Origin: Bolinopsis microptera
Lineage: Eukaryota; Ctenophora; Tentaculata; Lobata; Bolinopsidae
Direction of reading: 5' to 3'
DNA length: 64,000 nt
NCBI RefSeq assembly: GCF_026151205.1
Contig: NC_087082.1
Coordinates: 19,003,401 to 19,067,400 of the forward strand
How positions within the stretch are numbered: the first letter of the stretch is position 1; each line of letters opens with the position of its first letter. A model generated the notes under the pieces. That model did no database searches, had not been told where the DNA came from, and saw nothing but the letters and a program-made list of their open reading frames with translations. A program made the position numbers and the translations under genes. Shown in pieces: positions 1 through 61,900 of the stretch.

Positions 1-804
1 TGATACCATAAAATATTGTTCAGTAAACAAGTGGAAGCACCTTCCGTTTCTAACCCTAATATAACCCTTAATTGTACTAAACTGATAACCATGAAACGTT
101 ACTTCATCTTATACATGTGTTAAGTAGTTCAAGCTTTTCTTTAGTTGATCATTGATCATGATGCGCTACAACATACAAACATCTCGTTTTGTTTTGAGTG
201 CTTGGTGCAACCACCGATTTGGCCCCGATAATTTTTTTTATTGAAATCTTTCAAATCAGTCAATTACATACAAGTTTACACAATGAATTAGTTAAATATA
301 ATATTGTCCTCTAAGCATGGAAATGATATTAGTAATCCGTTATATTGTTGAACAAATTATGATGCTGATATTATGTTGAACATGATTTTCGAGTGATTGA
401 TTTGTTAGGTATACGAAATGGACCATAAATGTTATTATAAGTTACATTACCTACCTACTACGGATTTCACGACTACCATTTTATTTAATCTAATAACTTA
501 TGTAAACTTGTAAACAACCATTCCTTCACATGGCTTTTTTTCTTCCAAGTTTTAACTGCATATCATCACACAGGCGCAGGCTACGGTATCCGGTCATTCA
601 ACTTTTCAAATTTCAATAATTGACAACGGCAACCCCTCCATTTTGTGCTCTGTAGCGCCCCAAGAATGATGAATAAAGAACCATTATTTGATATTTTGAC
701 TAACATGAAACGATTTTACATTTTAAAGGCAATGCCTACGGTTGATGGAAATCTAGCGTCCGGTAACCGGTGCAATTATACTTGTTAATAAATTCAACTC
801 ACAG
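1..804 (+). other. Intron-type copy of the SRCR cassette, window edge
   Basis: The sequence from base 2 on matches the intron after each SRCR exon (copies begin near 2618, 3660, 5490, 6053, 7170 and 8256). The window therefore opens inside a downstream-intron unit, and at least one more SRCR exon is expected just upstream. No coding sequence seen before 805. Confidence 0.75.
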
Positions 805-1110
805 ATTTTAGTTTGGTGGACTCTCATGGTGATACTATTGGAGCTAACATTCTTGGGTTACTAATCAGCAATGGAGGAACAGTTTGTCACAATTATTTCA
901 CTGATTACTCAGCTGATGCTATTTGTCGTGAAATGGGATACTTTGGTGAAATGAGTTGGACATCTGGTAATAAGTGGGGCATCCAGTCAAATTATGATAT
1001 TACCCTGGACGACGTTTCATGTAGCAGCGGTGAATGGAGTTCGTGTACATTTTCATTATCGAACGATTGTGATCACAGTAAAGATGTGTTTTTACAGTGT
1101 TATGTTATTG
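805..1110 (+). CDS. SRCR exon 1
   Basis: Acceptor ACAG at 801-804, donor GTGAGT at 1111; 306 bp, phase 1-1. Encodes one scavenger receptor cysteine-rich domain with six cysteines spaced like group A (VC, ICREMGY, SC, SC, DC, QC). Variable spots read GEMSW and CYVIG compared with the other copies. Confidence 0.85.
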
Positions 1111-1132
1111 GTGAGTCAACATCATAAATTAA

Positions 1133-1163
<31 letters not shown>

Positions 1164-2510
1164 CACCCTAATTTTTTTGTGAAACTTGGTTTGGAGATAG
1201 CAGTTGACCAACAAACTAGGACCGGTGACCAAACTTTTGAGGGGGTCCCGGACCCCAACCGCCAAACGGTGCCCGTGGGGCAGCCACGCCCATATTTGGT
1301 CCAAATTAGGCCCAATTTAGCCAAATATCCTGAACATGCCAAAAACCAGATTTAGGTGCTTTACTTGTAGCTATTGGTCCCCTGAACTCGTATATGAAAT
1401 TTCATTAAGATTGGACAAAAAATAACCGAGTTATGAACCAAAATATGACCATATTTGGGCATAAGCACCAAATTTGATCGGTTTTGGCCCATAAATTGGT
1501 CAAATATCAATATTTTTGAATGAAACCAACTGTATATAATGGAAAATAAGCCTATATTACACATCCTCTATGATTATCAGCTCAGTATCTACCTAACTGT
1601 GGATTCTGTATTCAAATAATCGCAAAAAATGAACAAAATCGTCCATATCTCAGTTCGCGATATTTGCGAAACTGATTTTGCTCAAAACAATAGAACTCAA
1701 TAGAGTTTCAATATTTTTACATGAAATTTTCAGAATAAACGTAGAATCGCATTTCGACTTTAAGTTTTGTATTGGAATTTTGAGTTAGGCCTTTAAGTTT
1801 AAAAAAATTTGGCGGCCAAATTCTGAAAAATGCCAGGCAAATTATGGAATTTGGCCGCCAGATTTTTTTAAATTCCTAACTCAAAATTCCAATACAAAAC
1901 TTAAGGTCGAAATGCGATTCTACGTTGATTTTGAAAATTTCATGTAAAAATATTGAAACCCTATTGAGTTCTATTGTTTTGAGCGAAATCAGTTTTGCAA
2001 ATATCGCGAACTGAGATATGGGCAATTTTGTTCATATTTTGCGATTATTTGGATACAGAATCCACGATTAGGTAGATAATGAGCTGATAATCATAGATAA
2101 TGTGTAGTATAGGCATACCTTCCATATAAAGTTGGTTTCATTCAAAAATATTGATATTTGACTAATTTATGGACCAAAATCGATCAAATTTGGTGCGTAT
2201 GCCCTAATGTGGTCATATGGTTTTTGGCTCAAAACTTAGTTTTTTTGTTGTTCAATCTTGATGAAAATTCATATACGAGTTCAAGGGACCACTAGCTACA
2301 AGTAGAGCACCTAAAATCTGTATTTTGAGCATGTTCAGGGTATTTGGCTAAATTGGGCCTAATTTGGACCAAATATGGGCGTGGCTGCCCGCGGGCACCG
2401 TTTGGCGGTTGGGGTCCGGGACCCCCTCAAAAGTTCAGTCACCGGTCCTAGTTTGTTGATCATCTGCTATCTCGAAACCATGTTTCACCAAAAATCAGGG
2501 TGAACCCCCC

Positions 2511-2583
<73 letters not shown>

Positions 2584-5500
2584 GGACACCCTGTATAATT
2601 GGGTTAAAAGTAATTTGATACCATAAAATATTGTTCAGTAAACAAGTCGAAGCACCTTCCGTTTCTAACCCTAATATAACCCTTAATTGTACCAAACTGA
2701 TAACCATGAAACGTTACTTCATCTTATAAATGTGTTAAGTAGTTCAAGCTTTTCTTTACTTGATCATTAATCATGATGCGGTACAACATACAAACATCTC
2801 GTTTTGTTGTGAGTGCTTCATCATTGGTGCAACCACCGACTTGGCTCCCGATAATGATATTAGTAATCCGTTATATTGTTGAACAAATTATGATGCTGAT
2901 ATTATGTTGAACATGATTGTCAAGTGATTGATTTGTTATACAAAATGGACCATAATTGTTAATATGAGTTACACCTACTACAAATTTCACGACTACCATT
3001 TTATTTAATCTAACACATCATGTAAACTTGCAAACAACCATTCCTTCACATTCCTTCAGGCTACGGTATCCGGTCATTCAACTTTTAAAATTTGAATAAT
3101 TGACAATGGCAACCCCTCCATTTTGTGCTCTGTAGCACCCCAAGAATGATGAATAAATAACCATTGTTTGATATTTTGACCAACATGAAACGATCGTTAA
3201 TTGTAATTTTACATTTTAAAGGCAATGCCTACGGTTGATGGAAATATAGCGTCCGCTAACCGGTGCAATTAATCTTGTTAATAAATTCAACTCACAGATT
3301 TTAGTCTGGTGGACTCTCATGGTGATACTATTGGAGCTGGCATTCTTGGGTTACTAATCAACAATGGAGGAACAGTTTGTAACGATTATTTCACCTTTTA
3401 CCCAGGTGATGCTATTTGTCGTGAAATGGGATACATGGGTCAAATCGGTTGGACATCCGGTAATAAGTGGGGCATCCAGTCAAATTATGATATTACCCTG
3501 GACGACGTTTCATGTAGCAGCGGTGAATGGAGTTCGTGTACATTTTCATTATCGAACGATTGTGATCACAGTAAAGATGTGTTTTTACAGTGTTATCAAA
3601 TTGGTGAGTCAACATCATAAATTAAAGGACAACCTGTATAATTGGGTTAAAAGTAATTTGATACCATAAAATATTGTTCAGTAAACATGTTGAAGCACCT
3701 TCCGTTTCTAACCCTAATATAACCCTTAATTGTACCAAACTGATAACCATGATCAAACGTCACTTCATCTTATACATGTGTTAATAAGTAGTTCAAGCTT
3801 TTCTTTACTTGATCATTGATCATGATGCGCTACAACATACAAACATCTCGTTTTGTTGTGAGTGCTTGGTGCAACTACCGACTTGGCTCCCGATAATGAT
3901 ATTATAGTAATCCGTTATATTGTTGAACAAATTATGATGCTGATATTACGTTGAACATGATTGTCGAATAATTGATTTGTTATAGTTATACGGCCCCACA
4001 AAAAACCTCACCGAACCTCCACGCGGTGTGGGGTGGGTGACTCGAACGGGAGGTGCATGGGTGTTTCTAACCTATGCAAAGGAAGGGACTAGGCATCTCA
4101 ACAACAAAGCAAAGGAAAGGCTATAATAGCCTTTACTAACCTTAGACCCGCAGCATAACCGCTTTTCCCACAGGCGAATAACACCTTCCGCAGGAAAATA
4201 ACACGCTCACAGGCTCCCACATGACGTGTAACCCCAGGATTTGGTTTTGGATCGAACACTCAAAACAACGATAGAGGAGAGGTCTCACGCTCACAGACTA
4301 CAACGTCTCGTGTAACCCCAGGATTTAACACGCTCACAGGCTACCACGTCTCGTGTACCCTAGGATTTGATTATGGATCGGACACTCAAAACAACGACAG
4401 AGGAGCGGTCTACAGTGACAGAGTGACGTTACAGTAACATTGCAAACTCCTACGATTTTCACGTAGCAGGCCATGAACTCCCCTGGAAGTCCCTGTCTCT
4501 CCGTCGTTAACCCGGCGGGGTTGCATCAGGGGCGGTGGTAACAGAACTTCAAGACTCTCGGAGTCTGTTGTCGATATCTATGTTTAATATATTTATGGTA
4601 TATAATTTGAAAGTCTCTCTCTCCGGCAGCAGGAGTTGGAGAATGGGGACGCGTTGTGAAAGCCACCGTAAGGAAGGCTTACTGTCGACGCCGACCAATC
4701 AAAAGAAAATGTGTTATAGGAAATAGACCATAAATGTTATTATCATATTATGAGTTACATTACCTACCTACTACGGATTTCACGACTACCATTTTATTTA
4801 ATCTAACAACTTATATAAACTTGTAAACAACCATTCCTTAACATGGCTTTTTTTCTTCAAAGTTTAAACTGCATATCACCACACAGGCTACGGTGTCCAG
4901 TCATTTAACTTTTAAAATTTCTATAATTGACAATGGCAACCCATCCATTTTGTGCTCTGTAGCGCCCCAAGAATGATGAATAAAGAACCATTATTTGATA
5001 TTTTTACCAACATAAAACGATCGTTAATTGTAGTTTTAAATTTTTAAAGGCAATGCCTACGGTTGATGAAAATCTAGCGTCCGGTAACCGGCGCAATTAT
5101 ACTTGTTAATGAATTCAACTCGCAGATTTTAGTCTGGTGGACTCTCATGGTGATACTATTGGAGCTGGCATTCTTGGGTTACTAATCAGCAATGGAGGAA
5201 CAGTTTGTAACGATCATTTCACTGATTACTCAGCTGATGCTATTTGTCGTGAAATGGGATACTTTGGTCAAATGAGATGGACATCTGGTAATAAGTTGGG
5301 CATCCAGTCAAATTATGATATTACTCTGGACGACGTTTTATGCAGCAGCGGTGAATGGAGTTCGTGTACATATTCACTATCGAACGATTGTGGTCACAAT
5401 GAAGATGTGTTTTTACAGTGTGATGCAACTGGTGAGTCAACATCATAAATTTAAGAAAACCTTGTATAATTGGGTTAAAAGTAATTTGATACCAAAAATA

Positions 5501-8500
5501 TTGTTCAGTAATGAGTAAACAATTCGAAGCACCTTCCGTTTTTAACCCTAATATAACCCTTAATTGTACCAAACTGATAACCATTGTAATTTTACAATTT
5601 AGAAGGCAATGCCTACGGTTGATGGAAATCTAGCGTCCGCTAACCAGCGTAATTATGGTTGTTAATGAATTCAACTCACAGATTTTAGTCTGGTGGACTC
5701 TCATGGTGATACTATTGGAGCTGGCATTCTTGGGTTACTAATCAGCGATGGAGGAACAGTTTGTGACTATGATTTCACTGAAGATTCAGCTGATGCTATT
5801 TGTCGTGAAATGGGATACTTTGGTCAAATGAGTTGGACATCCGGTAACTACGTAGATGAAGAGAGCATCCAGTCAAATTATAATATTACCCTGGACGACG
5901 TTTCATGTAGCAGCGGTGAATGGAGTTCGTGTACATATTCATTATCAAACGATTGTGATCACATTTTTGATGTGTTTTTACAGTGTGATGGATTTGGTGA
6001 GTCAACATCATAAATTGAAGGACACCCTGTGTAATTGGGTTAAAAGTAATTTGATACCATAAAATATTGTTCAGTAAACAAGTCGAAGCACCTTCCGTTT
6101 CTAACCCTAATATAACCCTTAATTGTACCAAACTGATAACCATGAAACGTTACTTCATCTGATACATGTGTTAAGTAGTTCAAGCTTTTCTTTACTTGAT
6201 CATTGATCATGATGCACTATAACATACTAACTTTTCGTTTTGTTGTGAGTGCTTGGTGCAACCACCGACTTCATGGCTCCCGATAATGATATTAGTAATC
6301 CGTTATATTGTTGAACAAATTATGATGCTGATATAATATGTTGAACATGATTGTCGAGTGATTGATTTGTTATACGAAATGGACCATAAATGTTATTATG
6401 AGTTACATTACCTACTCCGGATTCCACGACTACCATTTTATTTAATCTAATAACTTATGTAAACTTGTAAACAACCATTCCTTCACATGGCTTTTTTTCT
6501 TCAAAGTTTTAACTGCATATCACCACACAGGCGCAGGCTACGGTGTCCGGTCATTAAACTTTTAAAATTTGAATAATTGACAATGGCAACCCCTCCATTT
6601 TGTGCTCTGTAGTGCCCCAAGAATGATGAATAAAGAACCATTATTTGATATTTTGACCAACATAAAACGATCGTTAATTGTAATTTTAAATTTTAAAAGG
6701 TAATACCTACGGTTGAATTTTAAAAGGTAATGCCTACGGTTGATGGAAATCGAGCATCCACTAACCGGCGCAATTATGGTTGTTAATGAATTCAACTCAC
6801 AGATTTTAGTCTGGTGGACTCTCATGGTGATACTATTGGAGCTAACATTCTTGGGTTACTAATCAGCGATGGAGGAACAGTTTGTGACGATTATTTCACT
6901 GATTACTCAGCTGATGCTATTTGTCGTGAAATGGGATACATCGGTCAATTGAGTTGGACATCTGGTAATAAGTGGGGCATCCAGTCAAATTATGATATTA
7001 CCCTGGACGACTTTTCATGCAGCAGCGGTGAATGGAGTTCGTGTACATTTTCACTATCGAACAATTGTGGTCACAGTAAAGATGTGTTTTTACAGTGTGA
7101 TGGAAGTGGTACGTGAGTCAACATCATAAATTAAAGGAAACCCTGTATAATTGGTTTAAAAGTAATTTAATACCATAAAATATTGTTCAGTAAACAAGTC
7201 AAAGTACCTGCCGTTTCTAACCCTAATATAACCCTTTTTAATTGTATCAAACTGATAACCATGAAACGTTACTTCATCTTATACATATGTTAATAAGTAG
7301 TTCAAGCTTTTCTTTACTTGATCATTGATCATGATGCACTATAACATACAAACATCTCGTTTTGTTGTGAGTGCTTGGTGCAACCACCGACTTGGCTCCC
7401 GATAATGATATTAGTAATCCGTTATATTGTTGAACAAATTATGATGCTGATATTATGTTGAACATGATTGTCGAGTGATTGATTTGTTATACGGAATGGA
7501 CCATAAATGTTATTATGAGTTACATTACCTACTACGGATTTCACGACTACCATTTTATTTAATCTAACAACTTATGTAAACTTGTAAACAACCATTCCTT
7601 CACATGGATTTTTTTCTTCAAAGTTGTAACTGCATATCACCACACAGGCGCTTAGGCTACGGTGTCCGGTCATTTAACTTTTTAAATTTGAATAATTGAC
7701 AATGACAACCCCTCCATTTTGTGCTCTGTAGCGCCCCAAGAATGATGAATAAAGAACCATTATTTGATATTTTGACCAACATAAAACGATCGTTAATTGT
7801 AGTTTTAAATTTTAAAAGGCAATGCCTACGGTTGATGGAAATCGAGCGTCCGCTAACCACCGCAATTATTTTTGTTAATGAATTCAACTCACAGATTTTA
7901 GTCTGGTGGACTCTCATGGTGATACTATTGGAGCTAACATTCTTGGGTTACTAATCAGCGATGGAGGAACAGTTTGTGACGATTCTTTCACTGAAGATTC
8001 AGCTGATGCTATTTGTCGTGAAATGGGATACTTTGGTCAAGTGAGTTGGACATACGGTAATAAGTGGGGCATCCAGTCAAATTATGATATTACCCTGGAC
8101 GACGTTTCATGCAGCAGCGGTGAATGGAGTTCGTGTACATTTTCGTTATCGAACGATTGTGATCACGATGAAGATGTGTTTTTACAGTGTGATGGAATTG
8201 GTGAGTCAACATCATAAATTAAAGGACACCCTGTATAATTGGGTTAAAAGTAATTTGATACCATAAAATATTGTTCAGTGAACAAGTTGAAGCACCTTCC
8301 GTTTCTAACCCTAATATAACCCTTAATTGTACCAAACTGATAACCATGAAACGTTACTTCATCTTATACATGTGTTAATAAGCAGTTCAAGCTTTTCTTA
8401 ATTTCTTTACTTGATCATTGATCATGATGCGCTACAACATACAAACATCTTGTTTTGTTGTGAGTGCTTGGTGCAACCACCGACTTGGCTCCCGATAATG

Positions 8501-11500
8501 ATATTAGTAATCCGTTATATTGTTGAACAAATTATGATGCTGATATTATGTTGATAACTGATAACCATGAAACTTCACTTCAGATGTTGAATCAGTTAAC
8601 ATAGAAGTGAAGGAAGGCTCTTACGCAACGATTTCGTGTATCATCAATGGCATAACAGAAACAGCAGCAGTGACCTGGCGAACAAGTACAGGACCTGTTC
8701 CAGGCGATAAGCTCGTCCCTACCCAAGGAAGTTACTCTGATGGGACACAGACATCAACTCTTGCCGTAGACGGAACTCTTGTCAACGAAGATACTGCCTA
8801 CACTTGCAGAGTCACTTCAAGATCTTTACCTGATTCCAACTTCTCTGATACCACTGTCAATCTGAACGTTTATGGTATGTTCTTAAACGCTAATGCAGTA
8901 ATTGTGCGATATATTTTTCGATTCATGAACGAATTTTTATCCTTTCTTCATATTCCAATTCACATCAGATCAAGGAAATGATTTCATGATCCGTCAGTTA
9001 TAAATTGTAGAATTTGTAAATTTACCAAAACTCATTTCAGACGTTGAATCAGTTTACACAGAAGTGAAGAAAGGCTCTTACGCAACGATTTCGTGTATCA
9101 TCACTAGCATAACAGAAACAGCAGCAGTGACCTGGCGAACAAGTACAGGACCTGTTCCAGCTGAAAAGTTCACCCCTGTCCAAGGAAGTTACTCTGCAGG
9201 GACACAGACGTCAACTCTTGCCGTAGACGGAACTCTTGTCAACGAAGATACTGCCTACACTTGCAGAGTCACTTCCGGATCTTTACCTGATTCCAACTTC
9301 TCTGATACCACTGTCAATCTAAACGTTTATGGTATGTTCTTTAACGCTAACAGTAATTTCTATCTCACCTCCAATCTCCATATTCTAATTCAATTCAGTT
9401 AACGGAATTGTTTTGATGATCCGTTGGTTGTAAATTGTAGAATTTGTAGAATTTGTAAATTTACCAAAACACACTTCAGACGTTCAATCAGTTAACACAG
9501 AAGTGAAGAAAGGCTCTTACGCAACGATTTCGTGTATCATCACTGGCATAACAGAAACAGCAGCAGTGACCTGGCGAACAAGTACAGGACCAGTTCCAGC
9601 TGAAAAGTTCACCCCTGTTCAAGGAAGTTACTCTGCAGGGGCACAGACATCAACTCTTGCTGTAGACGGAACTCTCGTCAACGAAGATACTGCCTACACT
9701 TGCAGAGTCACTTCCGGATCTTCACCTGATTCCAACTTCTCTGATACCACTGTCAATCTAAACGTTTATGGTATGTTCTTTAACGCTAACAGTAATTTCT
9801 ATCTCACCTCCAATCTCCATATTCTAATTCAATTCAGTTAACGGAATTGTTTTGATGATCCGTTGGTTGTAAATTGTAGAATTTGTAGAATTTGTAAATT
9901 TACCAAAACTCACTTCAGACGTTGAATCAGTTAACACAGAAGTGAAGAAAGGCTCTTACGCAACGATTTCGTGTATCATCACTGGCATAACAGAAACAGC
10001 AGCAGTGACCTGGCGAACTAGTACAGGACCAGTTTCAGGCGATAAGCTCGTCCCTAACCAAGGAAGTTACTCTGATGGGAGACAGACATCAACTCTTGCC
10101 GTAGACGGGACTCTTGTCAACAAAGATACTGCCTACACTTGTAGAGTCACTTCCGGATCTTTACCTGATTCCAACTTCTCTGATACCACTGTCAATCTAA
10201 ACGTTTATGGTATGTTCTTTAAACGCTAATGCAGTAATTGTGCGATATATTTTTCGATTCATGAACTAATTTCTATCCTTCCTCCATATTCCAATTCACA
10301 TCAGATCAAGGAAATGATTTCATGATTTGTCGGTTATAAATTGTAGAATTTGTAAATTTACCAAAACTCATTTCAGACGTTGAATCAGTTAACACAGAAG
10401 TGAAGAAAGGCTCTTACGCAACGATTTCGTGTATCATCACTGGCATAACAGAAACAGCAGCAGTGACCTGGCGAACAAGTACAGGACCTGTTCCAGGCGA
10501 TAAGCTCGTCCCTACCCAAGGAAGTTACTCTGATGGGAGACAGACATCAACTCTTGCCGTAGACGGGACTCTTGTCAACAAAGATACTGCCTACACTTGT
10601 AGAGTCACTTCCGGATCTTTACCTGATTCCAACTTCTCTGATACCACTGTCAATCTAAACGTTTATGGTATGTTCTTTAGACGCTAACAGTAAGCTTACA
10701 ATCTATTTATCGATTCATGAACTAATTTTTTTCCTTCCTCCATATTCCAATTCACATCAGATCAAGGAAATTATTTCATGATTTGTCGGTTATAAATTGT
10801 AGAATTTGTAAATGCTCAAAAATCTATGCATCAATTTCAAAACATAACTTTTCCAATAAGAGGTTGTTTTAAGAAAATGTATTTAATGGTCATCTACGTC
10901 TATTAAACAAAAAATAACTTATATTACATTAACTTGAAATTTAAAAATATCAATTTATGTCAATAATTAAATTTAATATTTTAATCGTGCAAGCGTTATA
11001 AATTGAATGACGATTAATCACTCTACACTCGACTGTCACGTGACTTTTTCAATCCGTTCTCTAGCTGGCCCTGAACGAGTACTCGAAACCTTAACCCTCT
11101 AATCTGATTCCAACCGTAACCCAATCCCTAACAAAAGCATAATATGCTGAAACCCTAATCCAATGAGAAATTATATCAACTTCATTATACGGTCATATTA
11201 CATGATCGAGACAGTTTTTCGCCAATATTTTGCCAGAAAAGCATATTTAACTCTATGTCATGGGGGTGATTCAGACACACGCGCTCTTATATCACCTTTA
11301 TATGATCATAACACCAGGTTTAAAGCTAAGTTAGGAAAGACATATCGTGCAGAGGAGGTTAACTATTGGCATAATTACACGTACTCTGATTATCACACTT
11401 ACCCGTATAACAAACATACATGCTCGAGACATATTGATATTGATATTGATATTGATATTGATATTGATATTGATATTGATATTGATATTGATATTGATAT

Positions 11501-14500
11501 TGATATTGATATTGATATTGATATTGATATTGATATTGATATTGATATTGATATTGATATTGATATTGATATTGATATTGATATTGATATTGATATTGAT
11601 ATTGATATTGATATTGATATTGATATTGATATTGATATTGATATTGATATTGATATTGATATTGATATTGATATTGATATTATTGAATGAAGCTAACTTC
11701 AGACATAAATAATATTACTTCTTTTTACAAAGGGACTTGGAGTATAAACGACCAAGTATGCATGATTGTCTATCCAACCAAGAATTCAGGAGGCAAGGGT
11801 GGGTGCGTAAACTTTACTCTCTGCACTCTCCGATCCTGTATCACCCTGAATTCTTTTCAACGCATTTTTATTAAAGGTATTATATATACCTTCTAGTCAC
11901 TCTCTTGCTACTCCAAGTTCCCTAAGATATCTGGTCTAAAATTCGTGCTAGTTATGCATGTAAAATATATTTTTGTCTGCTTTAATATATGTGGATTCCC
12001 GTGGGGAGGTGTAGTGAGGCAAATTTGTTTATTTTAATAGTAGATTGCCTGTTCAGCAGGTTGAAGAGGTGATGCAGATTTGTTTACATTTTAATAGTAG
12101 ATTGCCTGTTCAGCAGGTTGAAGAGGTGATGCAGATTTGTTTACATTTTAATAGTAGATTACCTGTTCAGCAGGTTGAAGAGGTGATGCATATTTTGTAT
12201 TATGGAACGCTTGTAACGCTTGTAACTCCTTCTTGTTACCACTTACCCCGCTTTGAATGCCCCGAATTATTTTATATAATGTGCGTTAACCGTGCGTTAA
12301 CCGTGCGTTAACCGTGCGTTATGTGACCACCGACAGTTTACCGAATTGCCGGCTATTGTAGTTGGAGGGGTAATTTTAAGCCTAAGCCATGCACGATCCT
12401 CTTATGAGAGTTGTAGTAGCTACATTTCGATCATTGTGGATATAGTAAAACCGTAGAATACCCTTGTTAACTTGATATTTACATTTGTAAATGTATCTTT
12501 GTTTTTATAACCTCTTATTGCAGCGCTATCTACAATGGATACTGTGTACTACAGTCCCACGAGTATAGAGGTGACAGTGGAAGGACGTTATGAGCCACAA
12601 ATAATTTGGTTCATTGGAGGACAGGCGTACAGTTCTCAAGATAATCCCCATTTGACCCCAACAATTTCATCGGTATGGTCTGGGTCCAAAAAGACCTTTA
12701 ATCTGGCGTTCGATATGAGTGGGTTTGAAACATCTATGTCGCCGTTCACAGTTCGAGGAACAGTGTCTTTCGGAGACGCCACTGATTCAACCTTCGACAC
12801 GGTGACAGCCAACATCTACAAGAGAGGTTTTTCTTCTCTTATCCATTATTCCATTGTCTCATTTAAATTTATGATTCGATATTGCTGAAACTTTACTGAT
12901 ATCTAACTCTCATTTCACTTTAAGATTTCAATTTTAAATATGAATTTATTTTCATAGCTGCATTATACCTAATCTTAAAAAGTTGTTTATAACCTTAATT
13001 GCCATCCCAGAGTTTGTTGAGAGCCTTCCAGCCTCAACAATATTCCGCAACACTGACATCCCGAAAGCATTCTTGTGCTCTGCTTCGGGTGAAGACAAGG
13101 AATTACTTACGTTGTCTTGGAAGATAGGTTTGTTTCTAACGATCTCCTGTTACTCACGTTCAATGTAATATACACTCTGCAACTCGCTCATTTGAATGTG
13201 ATACGTACGATACATAAAATTTATGACCGGTCAGTTTTATCAACGCTGAAATGTAAGTATTCTTTTTCTCGTGATAACTGAAATTACACACTAAAGAACG
13301 ATACCACCACTCAACAGGAGATGTACTAGTAGATGATGAGGTAGAGCACGTGACCCTAACAGATGAGTCAGACAGCAGCTCAACCACCACCAAGATCAGC
13401 AAGTTGACAATAACAACCAACAAACCAACTTTCAACGCTCAGTTCAAATGTATTGCCACCTGGAGCGGAATAAATGGAAAGTCTATCGAGTCGACGTCTG
13501 ACTCTAACGCTGTCGGAGTAGCCGTGGATGAGAACACGTTCAGCACTGGTTCCTCTGGAGACGGAGTAATAAGTTGTGTGGTGTGGGGTGATTCACCCCC
13601 ACATTCTGTCACGTGGTCTAACGAAAGGGGTGATGCTATCACCAACCAACCTGATGAGGTAACTGCCATAGATAGCCGAGAATCAATGAACTCAATGAAC
13701 GATTTTTGAGCATGATTTTAATTATCTTTTTTGATATCTTCCAACTTTTAGTTTAACGAAATGACCCAACTTTCAGACAGAAATCGCAGACAGTATAACA
13801 GAAGGCATTACTTACACCCACTTGCTCACTGTTAAGAAGATGACGTTTGGGGATCAAGGAAAATACACCTGCTCAGTTGTGTTTGGGGAAAACGAAACCC
13901 CCGTTAATGTCGTCACAACTCTTCACAAGCTTTGTAAGTTGGTTATCAGTGATCATATTCAACCATCTATCCACCCTGTTGCTAAAACTTATATTTATAT
14001 ATTGGTATTGTTTTATAAATATAATGAAACGGATCGTTTGCCCGCCAATTTGATTGTTTTCAATTGTTCGAAATGTATATTATACAGGGTGGGCCAAAAG
14101 TCAGTACCCATACGTTGGCCTTTATAGCTCAGTCACTGAGTGCCCAATTTAAATACTTCTTTCTTGTATGACTTACTACCACCACTGGTTCGAGGAATTT
14201 GTCAACTCGAAAAATATTCGCGTTCATTTTTTTCAAATGGAGGTTCATTTTCACATTTATTTGATAGTTTGGATAGTCAGATCAAGCTAAATGTTATTGA
14301 ATTGTGTTTGGCCATTCGAATTACGTTTGTCCTGAAAGAATTAGAACTGTAGCTTCTCAGATGACCGAGATATGAAGCATAACAAGTTTATTCATTACGT
14401 GTGATCAGGTGATTGGTTTACCTAATCACGTGATAAGGTGACCCCGTTAACTACCCCGTTAAACATTATGGGAATTGTTAAGGGTGCCCAATTAAGGTGT

Positions 14501-17500
14501 CGTGTCACGGTGTCACATAATCAGTAATCACCCAGTCAATTTTGTTAACGAGATACAGAAAATGCTTGATAACTTCGTCATTTCTAATCCGTTTTGCCTC
14601 ATGTTTTCAGATCATATGCAACATTTGATAATCTACCGTCTCTGAAAAAATTTAGGCGTTCAGCATGTCCAGAGAAAACAATATAGGTGTTTTAATATTG
14701 AATGGGCGTGGTCTAAAATATTCGAATTTTCAAATTTTGACGACGGAATCCCGAACCAGTAAGTACAGTATGCCATCTGCAAAGCAACATCTCTCAAATA
14801 TAAAACACGGCGGAGCTATTAAGGCCAACGTATGGGTACTGACTTTTGGCCCACCCTGTATATATATATTCAATAAATTAACCGCTAAGTGATGTGATTT
14901 TCAGCTGCAAGTTTCGAACCAGCAACACCATATTTCGTCCACGAGGAAACTGTCCAGTTCTCCTGCGTGTACAACGGTTTGGATGACCCGCAGAATATCA
15001 AATGGTTCAGGGTAAATGAATACGCCATATTAAACCGAAATAATCTGAAAATCTAAAATATCTTGGAAAGATATCTTGTGAAAAAACTACGTTTTCTTTT
15101 GTTTTTGTTTCATTGACTTGTTAAAACCATCACCATAAAGAGCTACGATCTCAGAGTTCAACAGACGATGCTGAAAACCTAATAAGCAACAGTGATGCTA
15201 AGTACACCATTACCACTGGCAACTTCAACAAGGCCTTCAGTACGAAGACTAGCGTTATCACTGTAGAGGATGTTGAAGTTACTGACAGTGGCGACTACAC
15301 CTGCAAATGGACCACCGCAAACTTCAATCCTAAGTCAACAACGGTAGTCTCTGTTCGATGTAAGTGATTCTGTATTTAGCACGGTGTTCCTCAAGAGTTG
15401 TGATCCTTGTCATGATTTTTTATAATTTCTATATTGTTCCAGAATTTTCTGCTTTACAAAATTCAATCATATTACAAACAGAAACAATTTCAGTGCTGAC
15501 TACTCTCTACAACGGTATACAGCACTCTACAACGGTATACAGCACTGACGGGTCCATAAAGATCACGTGCAACTACGAGGGTACAACGAGTGGCACCATG
15601 GAGTGGTACTATAATAGCCAGAAACTGGAAGATGCTGCTGATGGTGCCATCGCCATCAACCCTGGTTCCCTGCAGAGCAATGCTCAGCAGTACACTCTGA
15701 CAATTACTGACGTTACTCCGCCTGACAATACGGGGTCTTACAGCTGTGTTCTGTCGTTCACAGACGGGGACAGTCTGCGAGCAAGCACGGAGGTTGTGGT
15801 GCGAAAATCATCCTCAGTCGACAGAGCGGGCACTGCTGAATCCACCATAGTTGTAACTGGTGATGACCTTTCTGCCAGATGCCTTATGGAAGGTGACAAG
15901 GTTCCCTCTGGAGTGACATGGACTAAAGGTGGCGATAACATCGTGTTCGATGGATCCACTAAGATAGAAAACACGAATACCAAACAACTGGAAAGCAGCG
16001 TAAGGTTTTTCAGCAACATAACTATAAAAAGTTATGACGAGGATAGTTACATCTGTAGCTTCATTTTTGAGGACGGTATTAATGTGCAATCAACAATAGA
16101 GGTCGTGTCCGCTAAAATTACCAACAATGAATGTGAGTTTGTGGACATCCGAACCCACACCAGCAAGACCCTTACCTGTACTTACCATGGTAGTAGTGCT
16201 GCCACTGCTGTTTCCTTTACTCGACCAGACGACTCAGTTGTTGCTGGAGTATTGGCTGAATTCAGCGCTGGAGGGGATGCCAGTACGGCAGGTTCCCAAA
16301 CGGGTAGTTACGCTGTATCTAGTGTGAGTGAAGCGTCCAGTGGTTCGTACAAGTGTACCTTCACTTTAACAGGAGGGAAGACTGTGGAGTTCATTCAGAG
16401 ACTAACTGCAAGGAGTAAGTAAACACTGAAATGTTATATAATTTCCATTTGCTTTTTTGCGAAATTTTGACTATGGAAATTAAGCATTAATTGTGCTTAT
16501 TAACCTTGAATGATCTTAGCGCAGTAATAACAAACGTTATATTTCAGAGGCTGTCATCGAATCATCAGCTGGTCTAAATGCAGATCTCATCGTACAGGCT
16601 TCTATAACTCTGACTTGTACCGTTACCTCTGGTGCACGGTCTTTGGACTGGTTAGTGTAGAACTTTTTATTGCTCAGAACTATTCAGATCCTTCATAATT
16701 TAAATTTGATTCAAATTTCAGGTTTCAATGTTGTCCTCCGATGTGCTATAATGTAAAATCCGGATCGGAATATTGTTTATGAGTCGCATGGTTGCGCAAA
16801 GTATTCTTGTGTAAATTTTTATTGATCCCTTTTGATGCGACAAGGAAAATGCTCTTATCAGGAAAGAAATTACTCAGTCTCAACGTTTCAATGTTACAAA
16901 TCTAGAAATGTTTTTATCCAAAATTCAAAACGTAAAAAACATCGATCGAGGCAAAATTAGTGTACAATTATTTATTTTTAATTCCATCAACTTTACCAAC
17001 AACAAAAAAAGAAAAAATAAATAAAAAATAAAGTGCTGATGCTCGCTCCTACCTGTACTTTCGGTTCCCACCACCCGAACCATACATTCAGCAGCATAGT
17101 CTATAGTGCATGCCTGAGACTCCGGCGAATCATCAATGATAACGACAGACTCCGAAAACAAATTGATGAATTAAAAACCTTTTTCTTCCAATCCAACTAC
17201 CCTAAAACTATGGTAGATAACATCAGTGAAAAAGTCAAAGGCTTTGAAAGATGCCTCAAACCACTGGACAACTCAAACAGCAATGTCCTGGTCCCAAAGT
17301 CTCCAGAACCAGCAGTCCGCGTTATTTCAACATTTGGCAGCGATCAAGAGTTAGTAGAATCGGTAAAAAGATTGGAACCAGAACTCAGTAGAACCAGGAG
17401 CTTCTCAGGATTATCTGGTTCCCATACAAGTGGAAACACCCCAGGCTCCCCAATATCATCTAAAGCCGGTACATCACGCCCTATCTTCAAATTCGTCAGA

Positions 17501-20500
17501 CGTACTGGAACATCATTTAGAAGGAAGTTAGTCAAAGCAAAACAATTTGCGGATGACTTAACCCAACCTCACACAAGACCATGTGGGGGCAGACACTGCG
17601 GTACCTGTAACATCATATCTCCACATCCATCAATAACAGTCAATGGACAGCGAGCCAAAGCAGTGTCTGGTACATGTGTCAGCTACAATGTTGTATACAT
17701 CTTCAGTTGCCAACTTTGTAATATGTGTTATGTAGGAAGAACGGTGCAGCCCCTAAGGGCACGAGTAAACGAACATCGCGCCCATTACTACAAACTCATT
17801 TCGGACAATACGTTTGTCCCTGAAGAAAACGACGACGGATTCAGCTTGGGTAAACACCTTGTAGAAGTTCATAACATGAAACAACGTGACAATTTCAACC
17901 AGGCTTATAAAGTGTCAATTCTCAGTAATAGTAGCCCAAGAACTCTAGAAGTGGATGAACACCGTTATATTCAGAAACTAAGAACTATACGTCCATTGGG
18001 GCTCAATGCCATGGACCCGTTTGGGATTCCATTATTGGATTTATCTTAAAGGTTTTCCACTGCATTGGGGCACAAGAGTTATGTTTTTAAAAATATTCAT
18101 ATCGTTTTTAGTTGTGTCATTTCATTTCCAATGTTACACTTTGTAGGAACTGATATTAACCGAGTTTCTGATTCAGGATGTTACTGAAGATAGTAATGAA
18201 AATGTTTTAACACCTCAGTACTGTGTTTTACTACAGCTCAACCTGCTCAGTCTGACTATTTGGGAATTTAAACTCTAAAAATAAAGTGCTATAACATTCC
18301 ATCCATTTCATAATTTTAGGTACAAGGGAGTGGCCAAGCTTATCGAGGAGCAAGATTACAAACGAATAAAAGTGTCAGAATCAGATGACCTGGTTTCCAA
18401 AATAACTTTTAACATCGCTGACGACAGCGCAGGGTCATACACGTGTCGTGCGGTGCAATACGACAATTTCTGCCCTACCGAGGAAAGGTTTGACTCGGAA
18501 CCGGTTGCGGTGTCAATCATTGCGGCAGCTCTAATAACAAACCCTGCTAGTGCCACCGCTTATGGTGGTGCAAGCCACGTGTTTGAATGCGTGTTCCCTA
18601 ATCCATTCGGAACTGATTATAACGAAATCACGTGGTCTTTCAAAAGTGCTGGGGATTCTGTTGCTAGGGTAAGTTTTGACATTATCTTTTGGTCCTACCA
18701 AAAATGAAAATGAAAATATCGAATCTCGCCGTAAATCTGATGTAAATTTTGTACCGAAATATTGATCACATCTAACGGGCAAAATCATGTTTCATGATAG
18801 CGGTATATTATAGTGACTGCAACAAATAAAATCCGGCGCCTTCACTAATACTTTTCTCGCTCAAATTTATCCCATAATCGCAGCCGATGATAGGAAATGG
18901 AGATGTATACAATGACCAAAATGAGAGAGTTATCGATGGAACAAAGGCATCTGACAGCTCGGTTGCAAATAAAATCTCAACCACCCTCACCATCGGAAGT
19001 GTTAGTCAAATCCTTCAAGATAGCTGTTTAAACTTTTAAAGTATTTGCCTTTCAGAAGTTTCTTTGACTAACTTTTGGACGCATTTAAAAGCTGGATTAT
19101 CACTAAACCTTTGCTGATATTTGAATTGTTAACTTTACAGGTAAACTCGGACGCAGCAGGAGAGTACATCTGTTTCATAAAGTGGGGAAGAATATTCATC
19201 AAGTCCGCAGCCGCCACACTAAAAGTAAGAGAAATATCTTCTCCACCCGAAACAACCAACGTGGCCAAGGGAGGAGAGGCTAAGTTCACTTGTAAAACTT
19301 CCGGTGATAGCGCAGCGTTAATCACCTTTCACAAGACAAGTAGTGATGAGTCAGTTGGTACAGTTGTTGTGACTCAAGCTACATCTGGTGACATTGTGAC
19401 TACCACTGGAATATTGACCATTGCTGGTGTCACAGCTACAGATCAAGGTATTGAGTATTATTGCAAAGCAGCTTGGGGTGAAAACACAGTGGAATCAGGT
19501 AAGGTGTTCTTATCTGTTTTGGATATAACGAGCTCAACAGAAACCGTGTGGGGCCTCGCTGGTTATGTAGCGGAGTTCAAATGTTATTCAGATGCTTTGC
19601 TCAAAGCAAACGCGAACGGCGATCCGTATTTGGTCAACAAGCAGAAGACATACGCCGATGCTCAAATAAGTTGGGAGGTTTTTGACACTTCAGACACATC
19701 CTGGAAATCAACTGCTTCAAATTCACGGTGAGTGCATGCTAGAAAATACGACCATTTTAAACTTCATTTAAATAAGATAGCAGCTGAATACTATGGGTAT
19801 AAACTCCCTGCGTTGTGGCTTGTTTGCTGTACATAATCTAAGCTGAAGCGAGTGGTCGCTGAACTTAAGTTAAATCTTCCCGAATGGAAATACGTGTATT
19901 TTATTCAAAAACTAAATCTTAAACTTGCCCCCTGCAGATTCGTGGTTAAGACATCGATGAGAAGCAATGATGGAGTAAGTTTGTCTCCTATGTCTCTCAA
20001 TAACCTGGAGGAAGGTGATAACGATCTGAAAGTAAGATGTAACATCGCCTACCAAACAGATGCAGCCAACAACTTCTACGGAGGTACAGTCACCTCAGGA
20101 GAATTGACCATGAAGATCGGTTCCATCACATCCTTCACTTCCTCTAAATCTGACCCACTGGTTGGAGAAACCATCACTCTAACCTGTACTGCAACCGGAG
20201 AAATTGCTCCTACTTTCTCTTTTACAACCCACGGGAAGAACCATTTCGACACTACCTTCTTTAAGTTGGTGAAGGCTGCAACTGTTACTTCAGTCGATTC
20301 AGTACACACTGCGGAATACACTACAGAGACTCTCAGGGTTAACACGATGATAAATGGACAAGTTGTCAACTGTCTGGTAAGAATACAGTTTTTTTTTAAT
20401 TATTGAATACTTTCAAACTTTACAGAGTACAGCAATTATAACGTATAAAATTAACTCAAATAAATTATTGCACCCGTCTGTAAAATCAGACGGGAGACCA

Positions 20501-23500: not shown

Positions 23501-26500
23501 ATAAGCCGATTTTTAAAATATACAAGTAGTACAGACAGATCCGTCTGAAAAAATCGATCTGCCGACACACAAAGCTTACAAAGGATTTTTGACGTTTTTG
23601 AGTCCTAATAGATGTCCTTTATGGCTGACCAACTTTTCCAAACTTTTCCACGTGTCTTAAGGCCACTTTTTGCCACTTTACCACTTTTTACCACCTTTCT
23701 TGTTTGTCGAATATCTTTAGTTGTGAACATCGTAAAAGGTTGCGGATCAATCGAGTGTGTTCATATTACTATGAAGAAAAACTTTTGTTGTAACAATTTT
23801 TACGTCAGATTATCAGTTAATTGGATAATTATCAATTAGCTAATTAGCAAAATTCTAAAAAATTTTTATTGGCTCAAAATGATCGGAATAGCTTAAAACA
23901 CGGAGAAAAGTAGTTTTTAGAAAAACTTTGAAAATTTTTCACTTACATTTTTTTTCGATACTTGGAAAAATTTCGAAAATTTAAAATATTTTTTTCCGCC
24001 AAAAGAGATCAAATCGCATGAAACGCGGAGAAAAATGCTTTTCAAAAAAACTTAGTGAATTTTTAGTTTCAAGAATACTTAAATCACCAATATTTGTAGT
24101 TGGAGTTCAGTAAATCGCGGCAGATTTTAGTAATCAGGAATTACTAAGTGGAAAGGTCTGAAACTGAAAAACGTTAACAATACGATATAAGAGTTTCATA
24201 ACTAATTACAATACAGCCTTATCAATTTTCACATAAACTGCACTAATGGCACAGTCAAGATCGAAAGACGAAACGATAGCCTGCTGTACTATCATTTTAT
24301 TGATTTCAATGATGAATCAGTGGGGTTAAGATAATCACATTTATAATAAATAAAACCTCTCTGTACCGTCAATTGTGCTAATCTAAACCGGCCTACCTGG
24401 ATTACCAGACCTCTTCTTTTCCTCAACAATCAAACCAAGTTGTTCATATATGATTGAATACAGCTCGATAAGTACTTACATCGCCCACCAAATGCTATAT
24501 ATAGCATTTGGTGGGCGATGTAATACTTATCGAGCTGTATTCAATCACAATACGACACAATACGTGTATATTATATGGCTCTTAATGAGGTTTATGAAAC
24601 GCTTAATACCGTGAGAAACCCGGTATAGAGACGTTTTACAGTATATCACGAAAACGTATACTTGGCCTCATGGCTCATTTACAGTTCGAAGAAGGCAAGA
24701 ACAGACCAGGGAAACTAAGGAACAGCCAGATCCAGGAAGCAAGTGTAAATACACCTTCCAACATCTACTGTGACTTGTTTTGTATTGTACTGCATACCGC
24801 TTCATTTGCTATGCGGTATAAAATCACCCCCATATGTCAGGGTCGGCTAAAAGTAAAATCAACAAGGGTAACATACGGGCAAGGATAAGATTTAGATACG
24901 AGCGTCGGGAAAGGGGTAGTAAAGAACCGGTAATAATTCATTCAGTAAAATGTTCCACGAGAGTCAGGATATTTTGGAAATTGCTAATAGAGACAGATCC
25001 TGATCAGGAAGGATTGTTAATGTTATTGAGGATGTTGATTTGAAATCTGGACGTTGTGAAGTAAAAATACAGGTTCTTCCCGCAGGATATTCGGGGCCCA
25101 TGATGATCAGCTCGGGATTAATGTGGGACAGATCGAAGAGCATTGAAAAGAGCGAGTTGACATTTTAAGCTTTCTGGTCTTTTCTTGCCTTCTTTGAGCT
25201 GTCAAAGAGTCATGAGGCTAAGTAGACGTTTTCGTGATAAACTGTAAAACCTCTCCATACCGGGCCTCTCACGGGAGAAACGAGAAGTGTACGGTATAGA
25301 ACGTTTTATATACCTCATTAAGGGCCATAATATAATATACACGTATTGCATTGTGTCGTATTGTGATTGAATACAGCTCGATATAATGTACTTACATCGC
25401 CCACCAAATGCGATATGAACAACTTGGCTTGATTGTTGAGGAAAAGAAGAGGTCTGGTAATCCAGGTAGGCCGGTTTAGATTAGCACAATTGACGGTACA
25501 GAGAGGTATCATTTATTATAAATGTGATTATCTTAACCCCACTGATTCATCATTGAAATCAATAAAATGATAGTACAGCAGGCTATCGTTTCGTCTTTCG
25601 ATCTTGACTGTGCCATTGGTGCAGTTTCTGTGAAAATTGATAAGGCTGTATTGTAATTAGTTATGAAACTCTTATATCGTATGGTTAACGTTTTTCAGTT
25701 TCAGACCTTTCCACTTAGTTATTCCTGATTATTAAAATCTGCCGCGATTTACTGAACTCCAACTACAAATATTGGTGATTTAAGTATTCTTGAAAGAATA
25801 CTAGTGAAAGAAATTCACTAAGTTTTTTTGAAAAGCATTTTTCTCCGCGTTTCATGCGATTTGATCACTTTTGGCGGAAAAAAATATTTTAAATTTTCGA
25901 AATTTTTCCAAGTCTCGAAAAAAAATGTGAGTGAAAAATTTTCAAAGTTTTTCTAAAAACTACTTTTCTCCGTGTTTTAAGCTATTCCGATCATTTTGAG
26001 CCAATAAAAATTTTTTAGAATTTTGCTAATTAGCTAATTGATAATTATCCAATTAACTGAAAATCTGACGTAAAAATTGTTAGAACAAAAGTTTTTTTTC
26101 ATGGTAATATGAACACACTCGATTGATCCGCAACCTTTTACGATGTTCACAACTAAAGATATTCGACAAACAAGAAAGGTGGTAAAAAGTGGTAAAGTGG
26201 CAAAAAGTGGCCTTAAGACACGTGGAAAAGTTTGGAAAAGTTGGTCAGCCATAAAGGACATCTATTAGGACTCAAAAACGTCAAAAATCCTTTGTAAGCT
26301 TTGTGTGTCGGCAGATCGATTTTTTCAGACGGATCTGTCTGTACTAAAGCCATTTTTTCGTCAAAGAAAGTTGTACTCGTTGTAGATATATTTAAAGTCA
26401 CTATTGTGACGGTACATTAGAACTAGACAGAAACAAAGTGTGAAGGGCCTGAACGGAACCCCTCGGTTTCAGTTCCTTGTTTAACACTGCCGTACAGGAA

Positions 26501-58900: not shown

Positions 58901-61900
58901 TATCTACATTTTTATGTCAAGTTGCTTGTAAGAAAAGTATTACATATTTTACAACTACTGCCATTATAATATGTAGCATGCATATTAATTCCGTCAATGC
59001 ATATCAACATTGTCAATGCCACGTACTTTTATCCGTACTTTCTTATCTTGATACTCTCTCACTATCAGTGCTAAAGTTTCCTCTGCTCTGGTTCTTACTC
59101 TACCTAAGAATTCCGCTGTTCTGTATGGCAACGGCAGCAAAGATGACCACGAAATAACAAAGTAAGTTATTTTGGGTTCCGGCCAAAGTAAGGAACCACT
59201 GAACAACACCTGAACACCACCTGAACACCACCTGAACAACACCTGAACACCACCTGAACAACACCTGAACAACACTGAACAACACCTGAACACCACTGAA
59301 CAACACCTGAACAACACCTGAACAACACCTGAACACCACCTGAACACCACCTGAACAACACCTGAACAACACCTGAACAACACCTGAACAACACCTGAAC
59401 AACACCTGAACAACACCTGAACAACACCTGAACAACACCTGAACAACACCTGAACACCACCTGAACAACACCTGAACAACACCTGAACAACACCTGAACA
59501 ACACCTGAACAACACCTGAACAACACTGAAAAACACCTGAACAACACCTGAACAACACCTGAACAACACCTGAACAACACCTGAACAACACCTGAACAAC
59601 ACCTGAACACCACTGAAAAACACCTGAACACCACCTGAACACCACCTGAACAACACCTGAACACCACTGAAAAACACCTGAACACCACCTGAACACCACC
59701 TGAACAACACCTGAACACCACTGAAAAACACCTGAACACCACCTGAACACCACCTGAACAACACCTGAACACCACTGAAAAACACCTGAACACCACCTGA
59801 ACACCACCTGAACAACACCTGAACACCACTGAAAAACACCTGAACACCACCTGAACACCACCTGAACAACACCTGAACACCACTGAAAAACACCTGAACA
59901 CCACCTGAACACCACCTGAACAACACCTGAACACCACTGAAAAACACCTGAACACCACTGAACAACACCTGAACAACACCTGAACACCACCTGAACAACA
60001 CCTGAACACCACTGAAAAACACCTGAACACCACCTGAACACCACCTGAACAACACCTGAACACCACTGAAAAACACCTGAACACCACTGAACAACACCTG
60101 AACAACACCTGAACACCACCTGAACAACACCTGAACACCACCTGAACACCACCTGAACAACACCTGAACACCACCTGAACAACACCTGAACACCACTGAA
60201 AAACACCTGAACACCACCTGAACACCACCTGAACAACACCTGAACACCACTGAATAACACCTGAACACCACTGAAAAACACCTGAACAACACCTGAACAC
60301 CACCTGAACAACACCTGAACACCACTGAAAAACACCTGAACACCACCTGAACACCACCTGAACAACACCTGAACAACACCTGAACAACACCTGAACAACA
60401 CCTGAACACCACTGAAAAACACCTGAACACCACCTGAACACCACCTGAACAACACCTGAACAACACCTGAACAACACCTGAACAACACCTGAACAACACC
60501 TGAACAACACCTGAACAACACCTGAACAACACCTGAACAACACCTGAACACCACTGAATAACACCTGAACACCACTGAACAACACCTGAACACCACTGAA
60601 CACCACCTGAACAACACCTGAACAACACCTGAACAACACCTGAACACCACTGAACAACACCTGAACACCACTGAACACCACCTGAACAACACCTGAACAA
60701 CACCTGAACAACACCTGAACAACACCTGAACAACACCTGAACACCACTGAAAAACACCTGAACACCACTGAACACCACCTGAACAACACCTGAACAACAC
60801 CTGAACACCACTGAACAACACCTGAACACCACTGAACACCACCTGAACAACACCTGAACAACACCTGAACAACACCTGAACAACACCTGAACAACACCTG
60901 AACACCACTGAACAACACCTGAACACCACTGAACACCACCTGAACAACACCTGAACAACACCTGAACAACACCTGAACAACACCTGAACAACACCTGAAC
61001 ACCACCTGAACACCACCTGAACAACACCTGAACACCACTGAAAAACACCTGAACACCACCTGAACACCACCTGAACAACACCTGAACACCACTGAACAAC
61101 ACCTGAACAACACCTGAACACCACCTGAACAACACCTGAACACCACTGAAAAACACCTGAACACCACCTGAACAACACCTGAACACCACTGAAAAACACC
61201 TGAACACCACTGAACAACACCTGAACAACACCTGAACACCACCTGAACAACACCTGAACACCACCTGAACACCACCTGAACAACACCTGAACACCACCTG
61301 AACAACACCTGAACACCACTGAAAAACACCTGAACACCACCTGAACACCACCTGAACAACACCTGAACACCACTGAATAACACCTGAACACCACTGAAAA
61401 ACACCTGAACACCACCTGAACAACACCTGAACAACACCTGAACAACACCTGAACAACACCTGAACACCACTGAATAACACCTGAACACCACTGAACAACA
61501 CCTGAACACCACTGAACAACACCTGAACAACACCTGAACAACACCTGAACAACACCTGAACACCACCTGAACAACACCTGAACAACACCTGAACAACACC
61601 TGAACAACACCTGAACAACACCTGAACACCACCTGAACAACACCTGAACAACACCTGAACACCACCTGAACAACACCTGAACACCACTGAAAAACACCTG
61701 AACAACACTGAACAACACCTGAACACCACTGAACAACACCTGAACAACACCTGAACAACACCTGAACAACACCTGAACACCACCTGAACAACACCTGAAC
61801 AACACCTGAACAACACCTGAACAACACCTGAACAACACCTGAATAACACCTGAACACCACCTGAACACCACTGAACACCACTGAACAACACCTGAACACC

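Follow-up and report, generated by a model that had tools for sequence, protein, structure and literature searches.

How do near-identical copies of one binding module within a single gene come to differ, and do the differences concern what the modules bind? The question is raised by the window, the whole stretch of 64,000 nucleotides analyzed here from the ctenophore Bolinopsis microptera (contig NC_087082.1, called C11 below; C11:19,003,401-19,067,400), which holds a series of near-identical exons encoding scavenger receptor cysteine-rich (SRCR) domains. A preliminary description had taken six of these exons for interchangeable binding modules, as in a recognition receptor, that could be combined by splicing or shuffled by gene conversion. 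From the sequence comparisons set out below, we consider it fairly likely that the gene encodes a multi-module scavenger-type receptor in which positive selection has diversified the binding face of the SRCR modules. The recognition-receptor part of the earlier proposal is the best reading, because the variable residues, which lie on the ligand and cation face, show an excess of nonsynonymous change over both synonymous sites and introns; interchangeability through splicing or gene conversion was not supported.

The SRCR Array

The assembly searched comprises 264.65 Mb in 232 contigs. Three more SRCR exons stand upstream of the window (C11:19,001,016; 19,001,951; 19,003,042), which brings the array to nine; the window holds exons 4-9, named A4-A9 for their place along it. 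Seven further copies belong to a sister gene on the same contig. Given one orientation and matching phases, the nine exons of the window gene and the seven of the sister gene presumably form one transcript per array. In the following list, site-2 residues are those at alignment columns 29, 30, and 99, the equivalents of D1019, D1020, and E1086 of human DMBT1.

805-1110, plus strand: SRCR exon A4 (fourth of nine), 306 nt, phase 1-1; site-2 residues H-N-K (lost)
3298-3603, plus strand: SRCR exon A5, 306 nt, phase 1-1; site-2 residues N-D-K; patch TFYPG
5126-5431, plus strand: SRCR exon A6, 306 nt, phase 1-1; site-2 residues N-D-E (half)
5682-5996, plus strand: SRCR exon A7, 315 nt with a three-residue insertion, phase 1-1; site-2 residues D-Y-F
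6803-7108, plus strand: SRCR exon A8, 306 nt given the GTACGT donor, phase 1-1; site-2 residues D-D-K (half)
7895-8200, plus strand: SRCR exon A9, 306 nt, phase 1-1; alone in the window in having the complete D-D-E triad at site 2
7978-8010, plus strand: first variable patch in A9, columns 29-39, from the D1019/D1020 equivalents to two residues short of the second conserved cysteine
8032-8055, plus strand: second variable patch in A9, columns 47-54, past CREMGY
8155-8172, plus strand: third variable patch in A9, columns 94-99, with the N1081 and E1086 equivalents

All six exons lie where the preliminary description had placed them, are open, have AG...GT borders, and share a common framework; its statement that all cysteines are kept extends to the sister gene, six cysteines being invariant in 16/16 copies. 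Phase 1-1 likewise applies to all six, with A8 in frame solely through a GTACGT donor at 7109. This exon has two donors 4 nt apart (window 7109-7116), and GTGAGT, the donor used by the other SRCR copies, would yield 310 nt and a frameshift. The patch sequences quoted earlier are correct, and two extra states were found, FGQMSW in A7 and CGHSKDV in A8.

Copies of the SRCR exon are 1-10% apart, and every one of the 16 carries a distinct combination of patches. That the differences are concentrated in patches was borne out over the 16 copies: nonsynonymous changes are clustered along the exon (p=0.007), and synonymous changes are not (p=0.21). The 18 patch columns originally singled out hold 30 of the 67 minimal nonsynonymous changes (p=5e-5 against random column sets); in a rotation test that count is matched by 2 of 99 rotations, one of them the observed arrangement, and the ratio of nonsynonymous to synonymous changes (N:S) in these columns versus the rest gives a Fisher p of 0.11. 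When the nine units with regular introns are scanned in 30-base steps, three diversity peaks of 11-13% fall within the exon, which elsewhere shows 1-5%; intron steps mostly show 1-10%, with some indel-rich steps at 10-29%.

Assignment to the SRCR family is straightforward. The open reading frame (ORF) at window 804-1112 scores 46.2 bits against PF00530 (cut-off 26.1), and the other window copies lie over the cut-off where listed. An AlphaFold 2 (AF2) model of A9, built from an alignment of 67 diverse SRCR sequences, has a predicted local distance difference test score (pLDDT) of 96.9; a shallow alignment of 20 close copies gave 44.6 only, confidence being raised by diverse SRCR exons of the same genome. 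The top-ranked PDB matches of the model are SRCR domains: SCARA5 (Z 12.7), MARCO (Z 11.9, 2.1 Å over 89 residues), and SALSA domain 8 with cations (Z 11.9, 2.6 Å over 96 residues). The six conserved cysteines that mark SRCR group A are present in 16/16 copies, and group B, with eight, is excluded, since two DMBT1 cysteine positions align with I and Y here. Each SRCR domain is coded by a single exon here, an arrangement typical of group B rather than group A.

The Ligand Face

Variable residues were mapped through a phmmer alignment to DMBT1, that is, by sequence and not by distances in the model, and they fall on the experimentally defined ligand and cation face of the SRCR fold. Columns 29, 30, 72, 73, 94, and 99 correspond to D1019, D1020, D1058, D1059, N1081, and E1086, respectively. 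In the crystal structure of DMBT1 with cations, site 2 is formed by D1019, D1020, and E1086 and site 3 by D1020, D1058, D1059, and N1081; binding to three ligands is abolished by D1019A or D1020A, in CD6 the equivalent of D1019A leaves binding below 10%, and the cation site of MARCO corresponds to site 2 of SALSA (PMC7043408). Column 15, another of the top selected sites (see below), falls on the GRVEV arginine of DMBT1, whose bacteria-binding motif has been named RVEVLxxxxW (PMC3511184), and is by our count the counterpart of the second arginine in RGRAEVYY, the motif used by MARCO (PMC4491621).

Two comparison sets were drawn from the same genome. The first consists of 58 SRCR exons elsewhere, hand-chosen from match lists and not random (60 were taken; one with an in-frame stop and one outlier without the usual C-terminal loop were dropped), and the second of 92 distinct exons, namely the first set plus seven other arrays and the array on contig C9, of whose 47 array rows the 40 full-length ones entered the count. 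A complete D-D-E triad at site 2 is found in 3/16 copies (1/6 in the window, A9) versus 44/58 exons elsewhere (Fisher p=5e-5) and 70/92 distinct exons outside both genes (p=2e-5), whereas the site-3 side chains (D1020, D1058, D1059, and N1081, with D, N, or E accepted) are kept in 15/16 copies versus 56/58. At column 99, the E1086 position, the 16 copies carry K in 11 cases, E in 4, and F in 1; this column is acidic in 79 of the 92 outside exons and in 40/40 full copies of the arrays on C2 (two), C3, C5, C7, C10, and C81, and D1019 or D1020 is lost in 3/3 copies on C10 and 3/7 on C7. By these residues, 13 of the 16 modules are predicted not to belong to the strict metal-dependent SRCR type.

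Among the 92 outside exons, D1019 and an acidic column 99 are both kept in 73 and both lost in 13, and D1019 alone is lost in 6, so that exons without an acidic column 99 have also lost D1019 in 13/13 cases. On this count D1019 and E1086, the residues private to cation site 2, are tied, with D1019 the first to go; a simpler rule, that the two are kept or lost together, had been drawn from the 58 exons (45 both, 12 neither, 1 mixed) and was weakened by the larger count. The C11 arrays break the tie: 7 of 12 copies without E99 keep D29, versus 0 of 12 in the 58-exon sample (p=0.005).

Other SRCR arrays of the assembly have peculiarities of their own. At C2:17,837,501-17,846,500, nine nearly identical SRCR exons converge from opposite strands, four from one and five from the other, and the site-2 triad is intact in 9/9. 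On C9, an SRCR exon of a related array (C9:1893209-1893523) lies within an open frame of 2686 aa, and another copy of that array has lost one conserved cysteine.

Selection on the SRCR Copies

Selection was assessed on the 16 SRCR copies of the window gene (nine) and the sister gene (seven), from one genome; four C9 copies were left out. Codon models were run with our own script, not with PAML, M1a and M2a having relative branch lengths fixed from M0. Introns flanking the exons served as the neutral yardstick, and pairs of more than 15% divergence, mostly insertion-driven, were excluded, leaving 70 and 66 of 120 pairs.

Over the whole exon, synonymous divergence (dS) is 0.061 and nonsynonymous divergence (dN) 0.062, a dN/dS of about 1.03; the mean Jukes-Cantor (JC) divergence of the introns is 0.079 upstream and 0.048 downstream for the pairs kept. 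Against these values, dN reaches 0.188 (bootstrap 0.110-0.28) in the two cation-ligand loops (columns 29-38 and 94-99) and 0.150 (bootstrap 0.082-0.22) in the ten columns homologous to the coordinating residues of DMBT1, with 0.029 outside the patches. Both lower limits exceed both intron means, that of the ten columns barely, and the bootstrap P versus the faster intron is 0.0014 for the loops and 0.02 for the ten columns. Because loop dN exceeds both dS and intron divergence, it is above neutral and not merely relaxed.

The preliminary description had suggested that the variable sites should show excess nonsynonymous change, and per-site dN/dS across the copies, together with loop dN, agrees. 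M2a improves on M1a with twice the log-likelihood difference (2dl) at 19.25 (p=6.6e-5), placing 23% of sites at a dN/dS (omega) of 3.3; the gain persists without A7, the most divergent copy (p=5e-5), and on the intron tree of the nine regular units (p=1.8e-5), and is weaker without columns 15 and 34 (p=0.009). With a separate tree for each third of the exon, columns 1-46 give 2dl 19.99 (p=4.6e-5) and the summed test p=0.001, the top sites being 15, 29, 31, and 34. Tree-free counts are mixed: the ligand loops stand out in both change density (p=1e-4) and N:S contrast (p=0.013), and the ten coordinating columns in change density (p=0.008; 5/99 rotations) but not in N:S contrast.

Within the same two genes, the 23 immunoglobulin (Ig) exons have omega 0.49, and a class above 1 brings no gain; eight stretches of the downstream region between both genes have dS 0.038 and omega 0.58. 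The SRCR array on C7, with seven copies and low power, has omega 0.31 and shows no positive selection (p=0.69).

Weighing the Explanations

Several results weigh against diversification by positive selection or narrow its reach. The overall dN/dS is by itself also compatible with relaxed constraint; with their own trees, the segments that hold patches two and three give no significant signal (p=0.68 and 0.48), and among the four top sites 34 alone falls within the first patch as it was drawn in the preliminary description. Selection near the first patch is well supported; for the second and third patches, given the per-segment trees, the case comes from the clustering and the whole-exon model. 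Tree-free N:S is no different in the ten coordinating columns than in the other columns (Fisher p=0.24), the six side-chain ligands alone reach a nonsynonymous density p of 0.057 (11/99 rotations), the loops 29-38 and 94-99 were defined post hoc with the variation already seen, some top sites depend on multi-base codon changes (column 15, GGC/AAC), and four apparently orthologous pairs between the window and sister genes split, with dN/dS of 1.66 and 1.70 versus 0.42 and 0.41. The triad is incomplete elsewhere too (3/3 on C10, 3/7 on C7, 2/4 on C9, and 14/58 sampled exons), so the pocket change is not unique to the two C11 arrays. These last counts bear on relaxed constraint, in which the modules of a redundant array drift, site 2 decays since few of them need it, and the patches are merely tolerant surface loops. 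We regard this as unlikely but deserving of attention: besides the overall dN/dS, per-column variability in the array tracks that across the SRCR exons of the genome (Spearman 0.37, p=2e-4), and the triad is also missing in 22 of the 92 distinct exons elsewhere, but dN in the loops and ten columns above dS and intron divergence is unattainable by relaxation, and all 16 copies remain open, with six cysteines and little nonsynonymous change outside the patches.

A different account of the copies, which we consider quite unlikely, is that they are interchangeable exons joined by alternative splicing, possibly mutually exclusive or by skipping, and shuffled by gene conversion. Since all 16 exons are symmetric 1-1, any subset would keep the frame (A8 given its GTACGT donor), the distinct patch combinations would suit such shuffling, all four combinations of the two commonest states are present for the column pairs 35/47, 35/96, and 47/96, and 181 of 406 informative site pairs within the exon are incompatible with one tree. 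The pairwise homoplasy index (PHI), however, is not significant for the exon (p=0.09) or for the nine whole units (p=0.24), and among the 150 matches listed no donor for the odd tract of A7 is better than its sister exons (79-86%), so the shuffling by gene conversion proposed earlier is not shown; the changed copy numbers do make recombination among the copies plausible. No exon feature forces exclusivity, and since all the exons are intact and symmetric, a constitutive string of nine modules is presumably a simpler reading than a choice by splicing; by analogy, four of five long DMBT1 transcripts in a cell line carry all 11 genomic SRCR repeats (PMC9038570). It is highly improbable, finally, that an assembly artifact, whether alternative haplotypes or mis-assembled repeats, accounts for the sister gene or the extra copies. 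The sister gene lies at C11:18.68-18.72 Mb, 0.3 Mb away and in the same direction, and follows the same order: an exon resembling an F5/8C-type galactose-binding domain (86% identical) comes first, then seven SRCR exons and 18 Ig exons, and after them the downstream blocks. These five aligned blocks are 96-99% identical, that is, merely 1-4% apart, and other arrays in the assembly also hold near-identical copies, which would favor an artifact. The homology is nonetheless bounded: upstream of the F5/8C-like exon both genes share a flanking minisatellite alone, and among the matches listed from a search to 34,000 none lies downstream past window 27,958 (the sister sequence used in the alignment ends 138 bases past the last match). 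Module numbers differ as well (9 versus 7 SRCR; 5 versus 18 Ig), and the exon copies are themselves 1-10% apart. Haplotype duplication was judged unlikely on the bounded homology and differing module numbers, and the sister gene is read as a probable segmental duplication with later change in module numbers.

Under the preferred reading of diversification by positive selection, the exons would specify a tandem series of SRCR modules in a single large extracellular protein, either a receptor or secreted, each module binding charged, probably microbial, ligands at its conserved cation face. After tandem duplication, positive selection would have altered residues of this face in one copy after another without loss of the fold, the targets being the GRVEV-motif position and the site-2-coordinating residues past the first conserved cysteine and, with weaker support, the loop before the last cysteine. 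Site 3 residues are kept in nearly all copies and the site-2 triad in few, mostly through lysine at the E1086 position. Some modules would still bind via two surface cations, whereas most would depend on site 3 only or have a lysine at site 2. The predicted outcome is a multivalent receptor in which modules on the same scaffold differ in charge and metal dependence, giving mixed specificities from one gene. Selection of this kind points to changing, probably microbial, partners; we infer expression, metal and ligand binding, and an immune role of the array.

Relation to Known SRCR Systems

The closest likeness is to human DMBT1 (SALSA, gp340), in which near-identical SRCR modules of the same fold and with the same cation face also stand in tandem in one gene, with a labile copy number of 7-21 modules (PMC9038570). 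In the ctenophore array, by contrast, the cation face itself varies; the DMBT1 domains are of the eight-cysteine type B and the ctenophore modules have six cysteines, and the Ig and F5/8C-like parts differ as well. The WC1 co-receptors of ruminant gamma-delta T cells are likewise SRCR receptors with diversity focused in variable regions, most of it in two such regions (VR1 and VR2) of one SRCR domain (PMC3511184). In the ctenophore array, SRCR diversity is focused on the binding face with positive selection, within the limits of the per-segment tests; WC1 diversity lies between 13 genes and in the distal domain, whereas that of the ctenophore lies between the exons of one array. MARCO has a six-cysteine type A SRCR domain with positive selection at three sites, of which two adjoin the WGTVCDD motif (PMC4491621); unlike the array, it is a single domain of a class A scavenger receptor and was compared across species.

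Tandem SRCR expansion is shared with sea urchin, sponge, and the ctenophore Mnemiopsis. Sea urchin SRCR domains are encoded by single exons (PMC10855680), and in Mnemiopsis SRCR genes also carry Ig and other domains, and a second exposure to Vibrio shifted 12 of the 55 SRCR genes, 8 of them upward (PMC11797021). The passages available from these accounts contain no ligand-face selection test and no such intragenic array, and the excerpts of open-licence literature searched held no earlier description of one. What would be new is a single gene with many near-identical SRCR exons diversified at the cation face; the SRCR family and the DMBT1- or WC1-like manner of working are known.

Gene Layout and Surroundings

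The SRCR array is preceded by an exon with a weak F5/8C-type match (E 3.8e-5, below Pfam's cut-off); its nine SRCR exons are followed by the five Ig exons and then by a region in which more Ig domains occur. Among the 18 ORFs scanned, a subset of the gene's exons, no Pfam match to CUB or ZP was obtained. The features past the SRCR array are as follows.

8584-8874, plus strand: Ig exon 1, first in a series of five near-identical ones, read as phase 1-1
9041-9331, plus strand: Ig exon 2 of the near-identical series
9480-9770, plus strand: Ig exon 3 of the near-identical series
9919-10209, plus strand: Ig exon 4 of the near-identical series
10377-10667, plus strand: Ig exon 5 of the near-identical series
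12511-20403, plus strand: downstream region with further ORFs, Ig over the Pfam cut-off in two (15364-16419 and 19072-19728); blocks aligned with the sister gene show 96-98% identity

Long arrays of near-identical Ig exons, of the same family as in the window, also occur, among the matches listed, at C11:17.41-17.45, 18.06-18.07, 18.136-18.144, and 20.71-20.74 Mb and at C2:17.436-17.445 Mb. The intron that follows A4 contains an inverted repeat of about 1.4 kb (window 1133-2579) with a G run at its start and a long C run at its end, and the initial part of this intron differs from those of the other 15 SRCR units. A possible decayed second copy of the F5/8C-like exon is an ORF at window 11151-11690 that resembles it at 41% over 75 aligned positions, leads into a simple repeat, and has a counterpart in the sister gene.

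Several further elements lie in the window. An element of about 2.8 kb with inverted internal structure (23527-26346) is missing from the same place in the sister gene, where it matches a break in homology, and recurs nearly full-length at at least 14 other places with 92-96% identity. Two ORFs with weak GIY-YIG matches (17021-18046 and 41093-43639; E 0.003 and 0.002, below cut-off) are likely mobile elements, and the first falls within a homology break at 17,037-18,277 relative to the sister gene. The ORF at 50660-50926, which matches a K319L-like PKD domain weakly (E 5.8e-4, below cut-off), is possibly part of a different gene, and the minus strand at 59000-62840 is minisatellite-like and open in three frames, its ORFs of 998-1265 aa consisting of short repeats.

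Significance

A more far-reaching possibility, to which we assign a rather low probability, is that an early-branching animal possesses an in-gene repertoire of individually tuned SRCR modules, with site 3 kept and site 2 on, half-off, or wholly off, often because a lysine replaces the metal-binding glutamate, whose number and composition differ between gene copies and probably between individuals; exon choice may combine these modules further, which would amount to a germline- and splice-encoded repertoire on SRCR and Ig arrays. SRCR arrays are usually read as repeats of one binding unit, and here the same scaffold would present different ligand faces within one gene, for which a neutral yardstick (the introns) and an internal control (the Ig exons) are available in the same genes. 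The array thereby yields testable predictions on which of its modules would need calcium and which would not.

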